A stretch of DNA of 64,000 nt from contig JAKARI010000001.1 in the NCBI GenBank assembly GCA_021819245.1, positions 1 to 64,000 on the forward strand, given 5' to 3'. Made by a program: the position numbers and the translations under genes. The stretch comes from Pseudomonadota bacterium. Its GTDB lineage: Bacteria; Pseudomonadota; Gammaproteobacteria; Acidiferrobacterales; Acidiferrobacteraceae. Below, in pieces: positions 8,867 through 17,270 of this stretch (position 1 is the stretch's first letter; every line of letters begins with the position of its first letter). The notes beneath the pieces are model-generated. The model had not been told where the DNA came from, made no database searches, and worked only from the letters and a program-made list of their open reading frames with translations.

Positions 8867-9904
8867 TTAAGTAGGGGTGCGCCCGGCCTCAGCACGCTCG
8901 ATCATACGCATGACCTCGGGGTTCGCGTTACATACGCTGATCTGGACCTGGGGGTTCTTCTCACGAAACACTCGAAACACCTCATCGGCAAACGCCTGAC
9001 CGATCGCAGTCACGCCAGTGAAATCGAGTACAACATGCTTGAATCGCTCGAACCGTGCCAGCAGGCGCTTGGCCTGGGATCGCGAAACCAGATTGTCATC
9101 ACCATAACGCATGAGATTAACTGGGACCACGGTGTTGGTAAACCCATAGTCCTCGCCGGACGTAAACTTATCGAATACTTGGCGCGCGGTTCGGGCCGTG
9201 TGATTGTGCAACTCCATCATCACAAGTGTTCCTTTCGTTGACGATGATGATTGCAGGATCCAGTCTTCAGTCTCGTGGAACTCGTGCGAGAAAAACACGC
9301 CACCCGAGAGGATAAGGAACTCGTCGAACATACGCGAGGCAAAAAAGATCCCTTCGCCCGTGTGGTTGGCCGGATCGGTCGTCAGCTTGCCCTTGGCAAG
9401 CTCGAGAACGGAATGACGCTCATCGGCAAGATGCAGTGCGGCCTGAATCTTCTTGAAAATGCCTATGCCGTCATCGATCAGGGTAATTTTTGTTGCGGCG
9501 GCGGTCTTCGCGAACTCTACCGTGACCGAGGTCCCTTCAGAATGATCAATCGCATTATTCAGCATCTCCGTAAAACCGTAGTGCCAGATATCCCGGACGT
9601 TATCGGGGTGGCCCCCAAGCGCCGGCGCGACATCTTCGCGCCAAACACGATCCTCAGCCAATCCGGCCAGCAGATATCGCCTGTGCCAGGTGATAAGGGG
9701 GGCTAGGCGATAGACCCGGCTGCGGGTATGTCCTTCTGCAGTGAGTATGCCTTCCTTGAGCAACTGCTGAAGATATTTATGGATGGCCTGGCGCGTGCAC
9801 CGGAACCTCTCGGCGGCAACCCGCGCGATATCGGCCGGGTGCCTATCGACGTTTTCGATGATAAAGGTGCGCGCGGCCGCGCCTCGCTTTCGCAGGATCG
9901 CCAT
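8867..9904 (-). CDS. HTH + GHKL (HATPase_c) + STAS-like (DUF4325-type) regulatory protein
   Basis: N-terminal winged-HTH-like segment (RFRCTRQAIHKYLQQLLKEGIL), GHKL N-box-like FTEMLNNAIDHS and DDGIGIF, C-terminal STAS-like domain (VVLDFTGVTAIGQAFADEVFRVF). ATG at 9904 preferred over TTG at 9919. Confidence 0.85.
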   Translation of the reverse strand: MAILRKRGAAARTFIIENVDRHPADIARVAAERFRCTRQAIHKYLQQLLKEGILTAEGHTRSRVYRLAPLITWHRRYLLAGLAEDRVWREDVAPALGGHPDNVRDIWHYGFTEMLNNAIDHSEGTSVTVEFAKTAAATKITLIDDGIGIFKKIQAALHLADERHSVLELAKGKLTTDPANHTGEGIFFASRMFDEFLILSGGVFFSHEFHETEDWILQSSSSTKGTLVMMELHNHTARTARQVFDKFTSGEDYGFTNTVVPVNLMRYGDDNLVSRSQAKRLLARFERFKHVVLDFTGVTAIGQAFADEVFRVFREKNPQVQISVCNANPEVMRMIERAEAGRTPT

Positions 9905-9910
9905 ACTGCC

Positions 9911-9967
9911 TATTGTCAACCTATGATTGGCTATTTGTCAACTTATTTAGGAGAGATTGTTAACTTA
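9911..9967. promoter_or_regulatory. Candidate operator: three direct repeats TTGTYAACYTA at exact 22-bp spacing
   Basis: ttgtcaaccta (9913), ttgtcaactta (9935), ttgttaactta (9957), immediately upstream of the ATG at 9904 of the HTH-GHKL-STAS gene. Confidence 0.7.
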
Positions 9968-10231: not shown

Positions 10232-11227
10232 TCACTGGGCACCATAGAGCGCCGCCAACCTCTGTGCGGTTACTATCATGACGCTACGCATTCGTCGGGG
10301 TCTTATGACCTCCGCCTTCTCCCCAAATCCCAAAATCCACCAACGCAGTTGCTCGGTCTCGGGCAAGGTGGCCTGAATGCGGATGCGGCCATCGGGCATT
10401 GGCGTCAGACGCTGATTCGTACTCAACGGGGTCTCGGCGAGATGGCGGGCGGCATCGGCCTCCAGCAGCAACTCGAGATGCACCATCTTTCCATTCCCAA
10501 AACCCATCTGCCCCGAGGCAATATAGGCGTCGATATCAAAGCCCGCCGGCCGGGACACCGGGGCCGCGAGCATCTCCACGGCCTTCATGCGGTGCAAGAC
10601 GAGTAGGAAAGGGTCCTGATACCCATAAAACGTGCACACGAGATAGAGCACCGCGCCACGCTGGACCAATCCTAATGGATGCACGGCATCATAATCGACG
10701 GGCGTCTTTTCGCCGGCCTTCAGATAGCGAATCTTTACCTGGCGGTCGGCAAGCAAGGCCTCATAGAGGACCTTCTGCACATCTTTCTTGAGAGGCGGCA
10801 CCAAGAGGGCCTGCATGGGCGCGACGACGCGGACCTTGTCGGCCCAGGAACGCCTGGGCCCCATCTCGGAAAGTCGCGCCGCGGCAAGCCTGAAATAGGG
10901 ATCAAGTTCCGCTAACGCCGCAGGCGGCAGCAAGGGCCGCAGGTGCTGCTGCACCAGCTGAAAGGTCAGCGCCTGCGAAAGGCTTAAACCCGGGATCGTA
11001 AGGCCGGGGGCGTCGGCGCTCCAGCTCCACCCAAAGGGCCTGCTGCGCTCATCGGCTTGCAGCGGAAAAAGACGAGTGAGATCCAAAAGGTCCCGTTCGA
11101 CCGTGCGTTTGGTGACCTCATAGCCCCCGCCCACGAGGCCTTCATGGATCTCGGTTGCCGTCTTCTTGGCGGGATGGCGCGGGATAAGCCTTAACATCTC
11201 CCACTGGCGCGCAATCGTATCCGGCAT
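10232..11227 (-). CDS. HTH/WYL-domain transcriptional regulator
   Basis: 331 aa; N-terminal HTH (TVERDLLDLTRLFPL), WYL-like core (KVLYEALLADRQVKIRYLKAGEKTPVDYDAVHPLGLVQRGAVLYLVC). Confidence 0.9.
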   Translation of the reverse strand: MPDTIARQWEMLRLIPRHPAKKTATEIHEGLVGGGYEVTKRTVERDLLDLTRLFPLQADERSRPFGWSWSADAPGLTIPGLSLSQALTFQLVQQHLRPLLPPAALAELDPYFRLAAARLSEMGPRRSWADKVRVVAPMQALLVPPLKKDVQKVLYEALLADRQVKIRYLKAGEKTPVDYDAVHPLGLVQRGAVLYLVCTFYGYQDPFLLVLHRMKAVEMLAAPVSRPAGFDIDAYIASGQMGFGNGKMVHLELLLEADAARHLAETPLSTNQRLTPMPDGRIRIQATLPETEQLRWWILGFGEKAEVIRPRRMRSVMIVTAQRLAALYGAQ

Positions 11228-11287
11228 GCCCTCGCCTCCTCATAAGGGAACCCGAGCGGGCCCCTCGTCATACCCACCCCCACACCG

Positions 11288-11344
11288 CCCTGCGCCCCAG
11301 GGACCTGGGGCATGCGGGCGCAGGGCGCGCCTTGGCGCCCGCAT
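11288..11344 (-). promoter_or_regulatory. Overlapping, mutually exclusive hairpins upstream of the WYL gene
   Basis: Perfect 10-bp IR ccctgcgccc(11288-11297)/gggcgcaggg(11316-11325); perfect 10-bp IR atgcgggcgc(11312-11321)/gcgcccgcat(11335-11344); nested gccccag/ctggggc (11294-11300/11305-11311). Confidence 0.55.
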
Positions 11345-11404
11345 GATAAGTCGCGTGCCCTCGAAATGGCGGGGCCTGCCATTATGGTTATGCGTCATGG
11401 AAGT

Positions 11405-12892
11405 TTAGCCGCCCCCCAAAAAACTGGCCAGACGCACGAGGGCCTGCGTGTCCCGCCCGCAATAGCGCCGCAGGGCCTCATCCAGGACCTTTTTGCGCTC
11501 GGGGGCCGTGGCCGGATCGATGGCCTCCCGATAGGCCTCCTGCGCCCCGCCTCCATCCTGCACCTCGGCAAGGCCGGCATAGTCGAGATCCGGCGCGATC
11601 GTCGGCAACACCGCCTTGATAGACCACGAGCCCTTCATGGCCGGGTGGTAATAGTGGGCCCGCGTAAGCGGCAGGAGATCGACCAGGCGCGCAAGGAGCG
11701 CGGTGAGGGGTGCGGCCAGATCGGCGTGGCGGGTGGCAAGCTCCCGAATCACGCGGCCCTCGAAGCCCTGATTGTACACACAGATGGGGCCCTTGGCGCC
11801 CAAGGCCTCGATCAGGGCGAGCGCAAAGGGCCGGGTCGGATCGGCGCCTGAGAGGTCCAGAAACTCCGTGTGGCTCACCGTCCCTGACCTCTCCTCCCGA
11901 TGACAGGACCATTGAAACGGCAGCTGCTCATACGGACGCGTGCCCCGCCAGATGGGCACGGCAAACTGAATCGTCTCGAAATCCAGGTAATAGCGGGGAT
12001 AGTCGAGTGCCCGCAAGGCCGCACGGGCGCCCGGACGCCGATCGAATCGCCCGGCCCGGGTCACCTGCCGCACCCATTCCTGCGTGGGGTTGCTCAACAC
12101 CCCCTCCGGGATATCCCGCACATCCGTGTAACCGGCGCCACTTAAGACCTCGATCGCGCCGGCGCCGATCCGGGGGAGACAAGACAGCGGGTACTCCGGG
12201 GCATCGGCATGACAGAAGGCCTGATACGGACAGGGGTAGGGATCATCGCAGCTGTCTGTCATCTCGGGCATGGCACCGGCCAGGGTCCGCCGGGCCTCGA
12301 CGATCCACCCCGGGACCTCGGCTTCCAGGGGCTGCACCACCGCGGTCACGTCCTCCGCGGCAAAGAGGCTATTTTCCGTCCCGTCGGGGCGGATCTCGCG
12401 ATAGCACTGATCGCCCGGATAGATGAACGCGCTATTGATGTAGTGCAGGACCCGGCGTTTCACAGAGACACCGGCGCCCGCAAAGACCTGGGCCTGAATG
12501 GCGATGTCTGCGAGCTGATAGTCCTTCACGCTGGTCGACGATTTGACCTCGACGAGATCGAAGGCCTTGCCGCGGGGCCGGGGCACGAGGATGTCGGCGC
12601 GCACCAGCACCCCGTCTTGTTGCACGGTCGCTTCAAAAAGCGGCCTGCGCGCGGCAAGGGCCGCCCGGGTCTGGCTCAGGGCCGCCTCGAGCGGTCCGTC
12701 CGGGGCAATCAGAATCCCCTCCGGCCAGCCCAGACGGGCGACGACGCCCACGTCCGTCCCGATCGCCAGCACAGCGTCGTTTGTCTCATCGGCCGGCACG
12801 CAGTCGGGCCTATGGACCGACAGCCACAGACGCCGTGGACACTGCCAAAACGCCATCAATTTCGATTTCGACAAGCCAAACCGTTGCCCCAT
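11405..12892 (-). CDS. DUF2779-like protein: PD-(D/E)XK nuclease-type N-terminus plus exonuclease-like C-terminal region
   Basis: 495 aa; GLSKSKLMAFWQCPRRLWLSVHRPD, nuclease-like VRADILVPRPRGKAFDLVEVKSST, C-terminal YYLDFETIQFAVPIWRGTRPYEQLPFQWS and GRDTQALVRLASFL. Confidence 0.85.
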   Translation of the reverse strand: MGQRFGLSKSKLMAFWQCPRRLWLSVHRPDCVPADETNDAVLAIGTDVGVVARLGWPEGILIAPDGPLEAALSQTRAALAARRPLFEATVQQDGVLVRADILVPRPRGKAFDLVEVKSSTSVKDYQLADIAIQAQVFAGAGVSVKRRVLHYINSAFIYPGDQCYREIRPDGTENSLFAAEDVTAVVQPLEAEVPGWIVEARRTLAGAMPEMTDSCDDPYPCPYQAFCHADAPEYPLSCLPRIGAGAIEVLSGAGYTDVRDIPEGVLSNPTQEWVRQVTRAGRFDRRPGARAALRALDYPRYYLDFETIQFAVPIWRGTRPYEQLPFQWSCHREERSGTVSHTEFLDLSGADPTRPFALALIEALGAKGPICVYNQGFEGRVIRELATRHADLAAPLTALLARLVDLLPLTRAHYYHPAMKGSWSIKAVLPTIAPDLDYAGLAEVQDGGGAQEAYREAIDPATAPERKKVLDEALRRYCGRDTQALVRLASFLGGG

Positions 12893-13059
12893 ACCGCCTC
12901 CTTACCCCTCGATCCGATCTCTCGCTATGCGGTTTCGCCCTGCCGCCTGGAACCAAAGACCCAGGCCATGGCATCGGTCGCCTCGATCCTGAGATCCTCG
13001 GGCACCATGATGCCGGTGCGCCACCAGGCCCCGACCCCCTTCGTCAGCGACCATTGCCA

Positions 13060-14037
13060 TCACCCCTGGGCGCGATCCACCCCCCCTGCGACGAGTCGTA
13101 CGGCCAGATCCGGCGCATCGACCGGCCAGAAACACTCCGGTCGCGGGCGGCGCACACCCGCCTGCCCGGCCGCGGGGCGACACGCCACGAGGTGCTCGAC
13201 CCAGCGCGCCGGCACGGCGTGCGCGCCATGCACCGCCCCCAGAAGCGCCCCGCAGACGGCGGCGTTGGTATCGGTGTCCCCGCCGCGCCCGACGGTATCG
13301 ACGAGGGCCTGCTCGAGGCTCGGGGCATGCAGCAACTGCCAGAGGGCGTTGCCGAATGCCACCAACACCCAGCCCTGCAGGGTCAGGTAGTCCTCGGGAG
13401 GCGCCCAGGCGGCCCTGTCGATGACCGCTACCAGAACCTCGTCTACCCGGTCGCCGATCGCCCATTCCCGGATATGGGCGTAGAGCGATGCCGGTTCGGA
13501 TCCGGTCTGTACGGCGTGCGCGATCGCCGCCGCAAACAGGGCATTGGTCTGCCCGCACACCGGGTGCGGATGGGTCAGCGCAGCGTCGGCATGGGCCCAG
13601 GCGGCCACGACCTTTCGGGGATGCGCCGCGCCGAATATCCCAAGGGGGCTTACCCGCATAAGCGCGCCATTGGCCTGGCTGTCGGGGTTGGGACGTCCGC
13701 GCAGGGCCGAGGCGATCGTCGCGCCGCAGTCGAAGGGATCCGAATGAAGCCAGTAGCGGTAGGCCTCAAAGGCGGCCGCCGCCTCGTACCGGCCCTCGGC
13801 CACCAGCATGCGTGCAAGCAGGAGCGCAAGCTCCGAGTCATCAGTCGGCTGTCCGGCGAGCGTCCCCCACGTGCCGCCCGCGGCAAGATCGCGCACGCCG
13901 TCGGGATAGCGGCGGCGGATCTCCTCGGGCCGGCAAAATTCCACGAGGCTCCCCAGGGCATCGCCGGCCAACTGGCCGAGGAGACAGCCCTGGGCGCGCA
14001 CGACGCGGTCCGGGCGACTGGATCCCTTCTTTCCCAT
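13060..14037 (-). CDS. ADP-ribosylglycohydrolase (DraG-like) family protein
   Basis: AQGCLLGQLAGDALGSLVEF, TDDSELALLLARML, GRGGDTDTNAAVCGALLGAVHG; ATG at 14037. In-frame reading continues 45 codons past the TGA (see findings). Confidence 0.93.
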   Translation of the reverse strand: MGKKGSSRPDRVVRAQGCLLGQLAGDALGSLVEFCRPEEIRRRYPDGVRDLAAGGTWGTLAGQPTDDSELALLLARMLVAEGRYEAAAAFEAYRYWLHSDPFDCGATIASALRGRPNPDSQANGALMRVSPLGIFGAAHPRKVVAAWAHADAALTHPHPVCGQTNALFAAAIAHAVQTGSEPASLYAHIREWAIGDRVDEVLVAVIDRAAWAPPEDYLTLQGWVLVAFGNALWQLLHAPSLEQALVDTVGRGGDTDTNAAVCGALLGAVHGAHAVPARWVEHLVACRPAAGQAGVRRPRPECFWPVDAPDLAVRLVAGGVDRAQG

Positions 14038-14161
14038 GAAACCCCCCTTACGCGACGGTGAACACACCCACCGTCTGGATCACTCTGATAGGACACCCGA
14101 TAGATCGTTCTCGCTTACCATATCCACCCCCCTTGCCTCATTGTGCCAGACATCGTCCGGA

Positions 14162-15439
14162 TCACACGCCACACACGACCTGCCGCTCCTGTACCAGGGC
14201 GCGCACATCCTTATGCTTGACCCACACGAAGCCATCGCCCTTCGAGAGCAACGCCACATCGACGGGTTCGGCGACGGTCTGATCCTCGCTTGTGCTCATA
14301 CGCATCAAAAACGCGGTGAGACTGACAAGGGACTCGGCCATCTTGGCGAGGTCCTGGCGCGGCAGGGCGCTTACCGCAGACAAGAGCGGGTCCGCATACG
14401 GCTCAAGGATGTTCTTACGCACGGAGAGCGCAAACGCCCTCCCTTGCTCAGCCACGCGCTCGGCGTCCCCGCCATCATCCGCATCGTCAAAATCATCGAG
14501 ACCCTCGTCGTCATCCTCCCGATCGTCGTTCTGCGCACGCGCCAGGCGGATCGCGGCCTCTGCGACCTCCTTAAACACGCGCGGGTGGATCCCCTCGATC
14601 AAGGAATTGATCATCTCGTGCTGCCCAAAAGGCGCCACTGTCCCATCCGCATCCCTTCCGACCCGTGTCTCGTCGGTCTTGCGGTACCGCAGGGTCCCCG
14701 CGGCCAGCGTGCCCACATCGTACATAAGCAAGACCGGAAATGGCTCGGCCTCCCCCATGCCGGCGATCACCACATGGCCGCGATCCCGCGGATGGAACCA
14801 ATCCTTCTGGTAGGCGAACTCCACGGTCTTGCGCAAGGCCTCTTTCAGGGCGGGCGTCAAGGAAAACCCTTCAAAGAGATCCCGCTCGACCTCGTCTAGG
14901 GCCCCGGCGAAGGTCTCCCGAACATGCTGCCCATAGTCCGGACCCGCACAGGCAAGATCCCGATACCGCTCCCAGTCTTCGTGATCCGCTTTGATGATGG
15001 CCGCGAGCCTTTTTTGCTTGGCCTTGTGACCGATCTTTTCCTCTTCCGCCAGCCCCCTCTTTAGTTCGTCTACATAAAACTCCTTCCAGAAATTGTAGAT
15101 GAGGCTCTGCAGCCAGCGTGTCTGTGTTGTGGGGGGTAAGAGCCGGTCGGCGCCCTCGATGAAGCCAAAGAAGTCCTGCGCGTACTCGGCCAGGGTGTCG
15201 AACCGCTGCCCGTCGAGTTTTTGCGCATAGACCTTGACGACCGTCTCCCACGGCACGCCCATGATGTCCGCCGAGCCATAGGTCATGACGGCGACCGGCA
15301 GCTTCGGGGATAGGCAAAAGAGCTTCTCGGCGGTGGAGTAGATCTTCTTGCGACCCCCATCCCCATCGCTCACAGTCACGGCGCTATCGGCCGCAAGCGC
15401 AATGCCCCGCTTATTCATGACCGCCACTTCACATGTCAT
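14162..15439 (-). CDS. Stand-alone proteasome-beta-like Ntn-hydrolase
   Basis: 425 aa; MTCEVAVMNKRGIALAADSAVTVS...RKKIYSTAEKLFCLSPKLPVAVMTYGSADIMG resembles the proteasome beta N-terminus; after Met removal Thr1 and Asp17 are in register and KKIY matches the Lys33 region. Confidence 0.75.
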   Translation of the reverse strand: MTCEVAVMNKRGIALAADSAVTVSDGDGGRKKIYSTAEKLFCLSPKLPVAVMTYGSADIMGVPWETVVKVYAQKLDGQRFDTLAEYAQDFFGFIEGADRLLPPTTQTRWLQSLIYNFWKEFYVDELKRGLAEEEKIGHKAKQKRLAAIIKADHEDWERYRDLACAGPDYGQHVRETFAGALDEVERDLFEGFSLTPALKEALRKTVEFAYQKDWFHPRDRGHVVIAGMGEAEPFPVLLMYDVGTLAAGTLRYRKTDETRVGRDADGTVAPFGQHEMINSLIEGIHPRVFKEVAEAAIRLARAQNDDREDDDEGLDDFDDADDGGDAERVAEQGRAFALSVRKNILEPYADPLLSAVSALPRQDLAKMAESLVSLTAFLMRMSTSEDQTVAEPVDVALLSKGDGFVWVKHKDVRALVQERQVVCGV

Positions 15440-15488
15440 AGAGGCCCTCCCGTCCCAGCCATCGATACCGCCTATGGTAATTCGCTCA

Positions 15489-15507
15489 TGCGACAGATCG
15501 TGTCGCA
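15489..15507. promoter_or_regulatory. Palindromic operator candidate TGCGACA-GATCG-TGTCGCA
   Basis: Perfect 7-bp inverted repeat in the divergent intergenic region between the Ntn-hydrolase gene (-) and the NERD-helicase gene (+). Confidence 0.6.
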
Positions 15508-15519
15508 GAAAACGGGGGC

Positions 15520-15558
15520 GGCCCGGCCCCTTTGGCGACCCCGCAAGGGGGACGGGCC
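15520..15558. other. Long imperfect hairpin in the divergent promoter region
   Basis: ggcccggcccctttg (15520-15534) pairs with caagggggacgggcc (15544-15558), 13 of 15 pairs Watson-Crick. Confidence 0.55.
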
Positions 15559-15644
15559 GGATAGGCAGGGATCTGCATCTTAAGGAGGCGAAACAGGCCT
15601 AAGCCGCGATCTTTGGCTACAATCTCAGTCTTTGAGGACACATT

Positions 15645-17270
15645 ATGGCGACCCTACGCCCCTCCTTGGCGGGCCTCCATGCCACGCTGCCGGGCGAACA
15701 GCGCGAGTTCGACGTCCTGCGGCAACTGGAGGCCGATCTGCCGGCCGACATCACGGTGTTTCATGGGGTGGCGTGGTCGTCTGTGCACAACGGCGTCCAG
15801 TGGTTCGGGGAATGCGATGCCATCGTGCTCGCCCCCAACGGCAGCCTCGTGATCCTCGAGGTCAAGGCCGGGATGGTGGAGTTCGCGCACGGCGCAGTGC
15901 GCAAGCGCTACGGGGACCGCACCAAAGATGTCGGCCGCCAGGCCCGCGTACAGCACGCGGCCTTGCTCCAGCGCCTGCGCGCCCAGGGCCTGCACGTCCA
16001 TATCGCCCACATGCTGGTGCTGCCGGATCAGATGGTGCCCACCGGCACCATAGGCTATCCACGGGAGCGCATCGTCGATGCCGCGGACATGCCCGACCTA
16101 GGCCCTCGGGTCCTCGCGGCGATTCCTGGCCCCGCCGCCCGCGCGCCCGCGGCCGATCGCCTATCCCGATTCCTCGATGATGTGTTCGACCTGGGCACCG
16201 ACGCTCACGCGCGCATCGACTGGGTGGGCCGTGCCGTAACGCGCCTCTCCGGCGGCCTAGCCACCTGGGTGCCGCGCATCACGGCGCCAGACGGGGTCTT
16301 TCGCATCGAGGCCACGGCCGGATCCGGAAAGACCCAGCTTGCGCTGCGCCTTCTGGAGCAGGCGAACCCCCGGGAAGCCCGCGCCCAATACGTGTGCTAC
16401 AACCGCGCACTGGCCGATCACATGCGGCGCGTCGGCCCGCCGGATGCGCACTACGCGACATTCCACGAGCTTGCAGTCGGTAATCTGCGAAGCCAGGGCC
16501 ACGCCATCGATTTTACGGACGGCACGCTCTTTGCGCGCGCCGCGACCCTGTATAAGCAACCGCCACCGGACACCCCATGGGACCTTCTCATCATAGACGA
16601 GGCCCAGGACTTCGATGCCGACTGGATCACGGCCCTGCGCGCCCGACTCGTCTCGGGCGGACGCATGTATCTCTTGGGTGACCCCGACCAGCAACTGCGC
16701 GCGGTGGCCCCGCCGGATCTGCCGCATGCCGTCGCGTTGCGCTGCACCGACAACTTCCGTAGCCCGCGGCAGATCGTGCAGTGCATCAACGCCTGGGGGC
16801 TTAGCGCGCAGCCGGTGGTGGCGCGCGCCCCCCTTGAGGGGGATCTGCCGGGCTTTCATGTCTGGGCGCAGGATGATGCCGATGGCATGCGCGCCACCGA
16901 AGCCGTCGTCGCGCAGATCCTGCAGGAGGGCGTAACCCCCGATCACATCGTGATCCTCACCGCCAAAGGGCGCCAATCCTCGGCGCTTTTGCGATGTCCG
17001 ACACTCGCGGGCCTTGCGCTTAGGCGTTTCACCGGGGACTTCGATGCGACGGGGCAGGCCCGCTGGACCAAAGGGGAGCTGCTATCCGATACCATTGCCC
17101 GCTTCAAGGGCCAGGCCGCCCCCGTGGTGATCCTGACGGAACTCGATTTTGCCGCACTCGATGACCCCCTGCGCCGCCTCCTTTTTACCGGCATGACCCG
17201 CGCGCAGTGGCGTCTTGAGTGCGTGATGAGCACGCGCGCCGAGCGCGTCTTGATGGAGGCCTTGCCCTAG
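15645..17270 (+). CDS. NERD nuclease-domain / SF1 (UvrD-like) helicase fusion
   Basis: 541 aa; NERD-like GECDAIVLAPNGSLVILEVKAG, Walker A EATAGSGKTQLAL, Walker B LLIIDEAQDF, LLGDPDQQL, DNFRSP. Confidence 0.9.
   Translation: MATLRPSLAGLHATLPGEQREFDVLRQLEADLPADITVFHGVAWSSVHNGVQWFGECDAIVLAPNGSLVILEVKAGMVEFAHGAVRKRYGDRTKDVGRQARVQHAALLQRLRAQGLHVHIAHMLVLPDQMVPTGTIGYPRERIVDAADMPDLGPRVLAAIPGPAARAPAADRLSRFLDDVFDLGTDAHARIDWVGRAVTRLSGGLATWVPRITAPDGVFRIEATAGSGKTQLALRLLEQANPREARAQYVCYNRALADHMRRVGPPDAHYATFHELAVGNLRSQGHAIDFTDGTLFARAATLYKQPPPDTPWDLLIIDEAQDFDADWITALRARLVSGGRMYLLGDPDQQLRAVAPPDLPHAVALRCTDNFRSPRQIVQCINAWGLSAQPVVARAPLEGDLPGFHVWAQDDADGMRATEAVVAQILQEGVTPDHIVILTAKGRQSSALLRCPTLAGLALRRFTGDFDATGQARWTKGELLSDTIARFKGQAAPVVILTELDFAALDDPLRRLLFTGMTRAQWRLECVMSTRAERVLMEALP

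Follow-up and report, generated by a model that had tools for sequence, protein, structure and literature searches.

Why should genes for a protease-like hydrolase, an ADP-ribose remover, a nuclease, a helicase and a transcription regulator stand side by side, and do they act together? The question is raised by a locus at positions 10232-17270 of the first 64,000 nucleotides of contig JAKARI010000001.1 (GenBank assembly GCA_021819245.1, an uncultured member of the Acidiferrobacteraceae), the stretch referred to here as the window. Four minus-strand genes encode a proteasome-like N-terminal nucleophile (Ntn) hydrolase (14162..15439), an ADP-ribosylglycohydrolase (ADPRH; 13060..14037), a DUF2779 protein (11405..12892) and a WYL regulator (10232..11227), divergent from a plus-strand fusion of a NERD nuclease and a superfamily 1 (SF1) helicase (15645..17270). 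The initial annotation of this DNA, made from the letters alone, had proposed a joint module. A recurring, horizontally mobile, WYL-linked association of nucleases, helicase, protease and ADPRH is borne out by our comparison, whereas the five genes do not form one fixed system. On balance we favor the view of a module under WYL control, shuffled by horizontal transfer and most likely anti-phage, in which the ADPRH is optional.

Conservation and decay of the locus within the genus

All five open reading frames (ORFs) are open and intact at the positions first given for them, and the gaps between the minus-strand genes, put at about 120-180 bp, measure 124, 167 and 177 bp, the first being reckoned from the ADPRH ATG at 14037. 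The grouping goes beyond chance, as other species of the genus keep the same genes together and in the same order. We compared 14 genus genomes (designated by G numbers, with G000 being the window's own) and four genomes of sister genera: Ntn sequence is present in eight of the 14, the NERD-helicase in seven (one copy a fragment) and DUF2779 in seven (two copies partial), and none of the three occurs in the four sister-genus genomes. Three Ntn operons are intact, with the order Ntn-ADPRH-DUF2779-WYL in G000, Ntn followed by a 222-aa trypsin-like protein, DUF2779 and a WYL remnant in G006, and Ntn-DUF2779-WYL in G013, where Ntn and DUF2779 lie only 25 bp apart and the WYL orthologue downstream of DUF2779 is 73% identical; further WYL remnants persist in G001 and G011. 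The genus core is Ntn-DUF2779-WYL, usually divergent from the NERD-helicase, an orientation relative to Ntn or an Ntn remnant that is kept in five of the six genus genomes with a full helicase copy. Since its occupants differ among the three intact operons, the slot between Ntn and DUF2779 is variable. The G006 protein in this slot (L020:7595-8263, minus strand) carries His, Asp and GxSG motifs and has no Pfam match even at an E-value of 5.

The module is also prone to loss. Five of the eight genus copies of Ntn are broken, through decay or disruption by insertion sequences (IS), and the remnants in G009 and G004 continue into the ORF of a Mutator-family or IS91 transposase. In G001, G002, G006 and G012 the module, or what is left of it, occupies a hotspot beside PBP1A; the window copy sits elsewhere, with queA/ackA flanks that sister loci do not have in common, and a look for a vacant site at queA had no clear outcome, the flanks varying by species and several contigs ending there. 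An apparent second Ntn locus in G013 proved to be one locus on two overlapping contig ends. We likewise rejected a tie between ADPRH and the module in all genomes, as a different type (ADPRH2) adjoins PBP1A in six genus genomes, and found no support for pairing Ntn with a tandem AAA+ (twin-AAA) ATPase as its unfoldase, the two meeting in no genome but G008 and G001, both of which have a broken Ntn. In G012 (L059:11196-15350) genes for an AAA ATPase and two calcineurin-type phosphoesterases and a third similar ORF lie, in this order, between the NERD-helicase and PBP1A; G004, Diaphorobacter and Azospirillum have phosphoesterases of a similar kind close to Ntn or DUF2779.

A common operator upstream of module genes

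A palindrome had been noted in the shared promoter region, and a conserved one does exist there: TGCGACAGATCGTGTCGCA at 15489-15507, of the form TGCGACA-N5-TGTCGCA with GATCG as the spacer, 50 bp upstream of the Ntn start. The longest inverted repeat of the region, at 15519-15559, is not common to the sister loci and was rejected as an operator. The conserved site is the single exact match in the 2.25-Mb genome; exact copies stand 44-89 bp ahead of Ntn in G006, G008 and G013, and G001 and G011 have it with one mismatch. In G008, G009 and G005 it also separates WYL2 from twin-AAA. It precedes twin-AAA in G013, in Diaphorobacter (by 39 bp), in Rhodoferax (as two sites) and in G405, and DUF2779 in G338; in Croceicoccus it comes immediately ahead of the gene that leads into DUF2779. 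L074 and L105 have additional sites where operons begin. Of 11 near-exact sites within the genus, 10 are located upstream of module genes, regions that make up 5.5% of the sequence, compared with none for each of 60 control palindromes; outside the genus four such sites were found against a control mean of 0.12 and a maximum of one.

A 5-bp spacer also separates the halves of the inverted repeat bound by BrxR, a WYL protein that represses a phage-defence island (PMC9122601), and the window's WYL protein shares the helix-turn-helix (HTH), WYL and WCX make-up of BrxR. By analogy, we infer that the site at 15489-15507 is bound by the locus's own WYL protein, its predicted repressor. The likeness to BrxR and CapW (PMC9122601, PMC9122588) thus extends to a WYL regulator with a conserved 5-bp-spaced inverted repeat at a defence-like promoter, whereas the palindrome itself differs, the WYL gene of the window stands last in its operon, and neither BREX nor CBASS genes are found among the module proteins. 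On the side of the NERD-helicase, a −10-like TACAAT element (15618..15623, plus strand) is conserved as part of its promoter: TTTG-N2-TACAAT occupies the same place in G000, G006, G008 and G012, with one base changed in G001 and G011.

The Ntn protein as a probable PMI-type proteasome homologue

The call of a proteasome-like hydrolase is backed by several lines of evidence, even though Pfam, NCBIfam and PADLOC contain no model that it matches. A profile built from 47 homologues, searched against the Protein Data Bank (PDB), retrieved the Thermoplasma proteasome beta subunit (E 0.003); a PDB sequence search with a small alignment had returned chance matches only. An AlphaFold2 model based on 47 sequences (pLDDT 87, pTM 0.84), which superseded a six-sequence model too poor to use (pLDDT 52), predicts a proteasome fold, with 20S proteasome subunits (beta) and Anbu as its top PDB matches in Foldseek (probability 1.00); the best viral match is annotated as a proteasome subunit. 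Thr2, Asp18 and Lys39, the counterparts of proteasome Thr1, Asp17 and Lys33, are invariant in 82 of 82 aligned homologues, in all of which Thr2 directly follows the start codon, so that there is no propeptide. Given this invariance and the predicted fold, the protein is probably an active threonine-type hydrolase. Protease activity would be in keeping with this; connectase, another relative, is a ligase.

The protein is a full-length member of PHROG 5990 (1.5e-79), a family of unknown function. Its model contains helical insertions at about residues 100-211 and 323-358 (model helices 103-211 and 323-358), which lie after H1/H2 and between H3/H4, the positions given for PMI-3 and PMI-4 by Fuchs, Alva and Lupas (2021; PMC8665760). 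By fold, catalytic residues, insertions and distribution it is provisionally placed with the PMI-4-type proteasome homologues; PMI-4 is preferred to PMI-3 because the family occurs in phages and Firmicutes. PMI-4/PHROG 5990 proteins have the same predicted proteasome-like fold, the Thr after Met1, the Asp/Lys triad residues and the insertions, and are found in phages, Firmicutes, Bacteroidetes and Proteobacteria, as are the relatives of the window protein. The authors of PMC8665760 found neither a genomic context that hinted at function nor an AAA+ partner for the family, whereas the window copy is operonic with DUF2779 and WYL.

Companion proteins

For the other four genes the domain calls of the initial annotation agree with Pfam. 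The DUF2779 protein matches Pfam DUF2779 (2.6e-42) and, weakly, Cas4 models; its alignment contains four invariant cysteines (C18, C215, C221 and C227), as in iron-sulphur Cas4, and an EVK motif at 115-117 in the DUF83/Cas4-like PD-(D/E)XK domain. Taken with PMC3985635, these features identify it, at the level of sequence, as a dual nuclease with an N-terminal Cas4-like and a C-terminal DEDD-type 3'-5' exonuclease domain. The ADPRH, of DraG type and the sole one of its genome, matches Pfam ADP_ribosyl_GH (7e-59) and, under the cut-off, NCBIfam dinitro_DRAG (4e-38), with its metal-binding TDD and GDTD motifs intact; its ORF spans 13060-14067, and the ATG at 14037, preceded by a GGGGGG ribosome-binding site, is the likelier start. 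Profile scans of the module proteins found no ADP-ribosyltransferase or sirtuin, the rest of the genome not having been searched for one. The WYL protein combines Pfam WYL (5.6e-11) and WCX (3.5e-16) domains with an N-terminal HTH recognized from the alignment.

The NERD-helicase joins Pfam NERD (8e-8) to AAA_19/UvrD_C_2, with NERD and Walker motifs present, and reaches a moderate profile score of 53 bits against PADLOC RTasNERD-Hel. It shares its architecture of NERD nuclease and UvrD-like helicase with DRT- and Gabija-like proteins (PADLOC RTasNERD-Hel, C3a187, GajB); neither a reverse transcriptase nor GajA is among its neighbors in the window. The module is adjoined at 8867-9919 (minus strand) by a gene for a protein with HTH, HATPase and STAS-like DUF4325 domains, whose G+C content is 56% as against 64.5% for the window and which tblastn did not place beside the module in other genus genomes.

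Ntn relatives on mobile elements and related operons

Relatives of the Ntn protein are encoded on 74 viral contigs, in 13 records of phages or satellites and on 10 plasmids, and in Streptococcus satellites and prophages the gene stands at the end of the element. A role as a phage structural protein was rejected because satellites devoid of head or tail genes carry it and because its position in phage genomes varies. In 64 of 67 full-length viral copies a small same-strand ORF begins within −20 to +25 nt of the Ntn stop, compared with 36% of control genes (binomial p about 1e-24). These ORFs encode 35-72 aa, are mostly basic and fall into several sequence families (for example L123:7257-7433, L029:7213-7380, L030:7270-7437 and about 60 more viral loci); their products might be cognate partners, inhibitors or substrates of the hydrolase. 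The genus copies have no such ORF, and the window protein also differs from phage PMI-4 copies in having no C-terminal HYF...NY motif. On a Mesorhizobium plasmid (L034:4733-9437) an Ntn homologue adjoins genes for a ThiF-type E1 and a multiubiquitin/prokaryotic E2-like protein, which could form a ubiquitin-like conjugation cassette beside a proteasome homologue.

Related operons combine some of the other module genes. WYL2-twinAAA-DUF2779-ADPRH2 is found in G008 and G009 and partly in G005, and twinAAA-DUF2779-WYL on Diaphorobacter and Rhodoferax plasmids; the tandem AAA+ ATPase, DUF2779 and WYL genes at L070:6733-11467 and L071:6860-11474 have the same operator upstream, and the Rhodoferax operon has genes for a macro-domain protein and an FtsZ/tubulin-like protein nearby. 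Such operons share DUF2779, WYL and the operator type with the window, and carry a tandem AAA+ ATPase (IetA-like in PADLOC) where the window has Ntn. An Azospirillum plasmid brings together WYL, twin-AAA, DUF2779, a NERD-helicase divergent from DUF2779, an inositol-phosphatase/ADPRH fusion whose ADPRH is 51% identical to that of the window, and two calcineurin-type phosphatases within about 14 kb, the WYL, twin-AAA and ADPRH genes accompanying the divergent NERD-helicase/DUF2779 pair within 13 kb; the surrounding cluster (L067:1304-18584), which has no annotation, includes further ADPRHs on both sides and a VWA-like protein. In G476, from a 399-genome sample of the phylum, the NERD-helicase adjoins DUF2779 convergently.

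Co-localization of the five genes is therefore real within the genus and not universal outside it: adjacency of NERD-helicase and DUF2779 recurs in two distant genomes, once with ADPRH, whereas the Ntn link to the module is confined to this genus. The Ntn gene is best read as having joined the module recently from a phage-borne stock. A broader proposal, tentative and somewhat doubtful, is that PHROG 5990/PMI-4 constitutes a mobile anti-phage or superinfection-exclusion protease family, carried by phages and satellites as a two-gene cassette of protease and 35-72-aa partner, and captured in this genus into a nuclease module controlled by a WYL operator.

Alternative explanations

The mobility, decay, hotspot, phage relatives and WYL control described above point to an anti-phage role, and the swappable parts, decay, IS disruption, hotspot, plasmid and phage homologues and common operator support a conflict system as hallmarks of such systems. 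Several observations weigh against a cooperating module. The ADPRH is present in one of the three intact Ntn loci; no viral Ntn locus has another module gene beside it, nor do 10 Ntn neighborhoods in nine other genomes of the phylum sample; and five of six NERD-helicases elsewhere are unlinked. Of 19 DUF2779 loci from other genera of the class, WYL is nearby in four cases and twin-AAA in five, with neither Ntn nor ADPRH and at most a marginal match to the NERD-helicase profile. The genus loci descend from a common ancestor, so their operators do not count as separate events; between groups, the WYL proteins that go with the operator are only 28-40% identical, and no consensus sigma-70 promoter was found. 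Finally, the operator lies 137 bp from the NERD-helicase start and is missing from the G012 copy of that gene, where TACAAT is kept all the same, so that regulation of the NERD-helicase is uncertain and it may lie outside the WYL regulon. The main rival, which we consider rather unlikely, builds on such findings: an integration hotspot would have gathered an independent NERD-helicase, a phage-derived Ntn gene, an ADPRH and a WYL-DUF2779 pair that do not cooperate. Ntn and NERD-helicase are indeed mostly solitary elsewhere, the window ADPRH is unlike the genus-typical ADPRH2 (29%), and the PBP1A-side hotspot gathers such genes in sister genomes. Yet the same order is found at a chromosomal site other than the window's, and the genome-unique operator links the Ntn promoter to those of WYL, twin-AAA and DUF2779; this common operator and the tight Ntn-DUF2779 spacing in G013 argue against mere neighborhood for the Ntn-DUF2779-WYL core, and less so for ADPRH and NERD-helicase.

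If the ADPRH were instead the core, the locus would be an ARG-centric system (Iyer et al. 2022; PMC9503650), directed against phage ADP-ribosylation, in which WYL would sense ADP-ribose and the nucleases would serve as back-up effectors. The combination of ADPRH, WYL regulator, restriction-type nucleases and helicase, in which profile scans of the module proteins recognized no ADP-ribosyltransferase, is in line with that description, as is the Azospirillum cluster with its several ADPRHs, inositol-phosphatase fusion, calcineurin-type phosphatases and VWA-like protein, and ADPRH2 is the last gene of the WYL2-twinAAA-DUF2779 operons of G008 and G009. The window differs, however, in its optional ADPRH, absent from the G013 operon and replaced by another gene in G006, and in the added proteasome homologue and Cas4/DEDD nuclease; a coupled phosphatase or chaperone is frequent in ARG-centric systems if not universal, and the profile scan found no phosphatase or listed chaperone in the window module. 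Because the ADPRH is not the conserved center of the sister loci, we do not file the locus as ARG-centric, which as a general explanation appears distinctly unlikely, although in this genome it may work like one. In a DNA-damage or stress module, as opposed to a defence system, WYL would sense single-stranded DNA, as PafBC does, and would induce DNA-processing enzymes and a protease. WYL regulators of DNA-damage responses are known (PMC11804915, PMC10693628), and a helicase, a 3'-5' exonuclease and a Cas4-like nuclease would suit repair; patchy occurrence, frequent decay, IS disruption and plasmid and phage relatives are, by contrast, unlike a repair pathway, and we consider this explanation quite unlikely.

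Proposed mechanism and implications

For the favored anti-phage module, we propose that a WYL dimer on TGCGACA-N5-TGTCGCA would keep the Ntn-(variable slot)-DUF2779-WYL operon low until infection or DNA damage, signalled by a nucleic acid or a nucleotide, frees it from repression. Once induced, the NERD-helicase and Cas4-like/DEDD DUF2779 nuclease might act on foreign or damaged DNA, processing or degrading it, the Ntn hydrolase would cleave a protein target, and the ADPRH, where present, could remove ADP-ribose from macromolecules, for example marks set by phage ADP-ribosyltransferases. In this scheme the DNA-acting enzymes would be the main effectors, with the protease and the ADP-ribose remover as additional or exchangeable parts. 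Among the papers searched, we found no phage-defence role for DUF2779 or for Ntn/PMI proteins.

PMI homologues were described in 2021 without a suggestive context, and the window locus provides the first bacterial operon context for the family. Together, a regulated nuclease module and phage cargo with a conserved small partner ORF offer testable functions for PMI proteins. Furthermore, the operator defines a previously undescribed family of WYL/twin-AAA/DUF2779 operons among the Beta- and Gammaproteobacteria, and the promoter offers a means of searching for this family.

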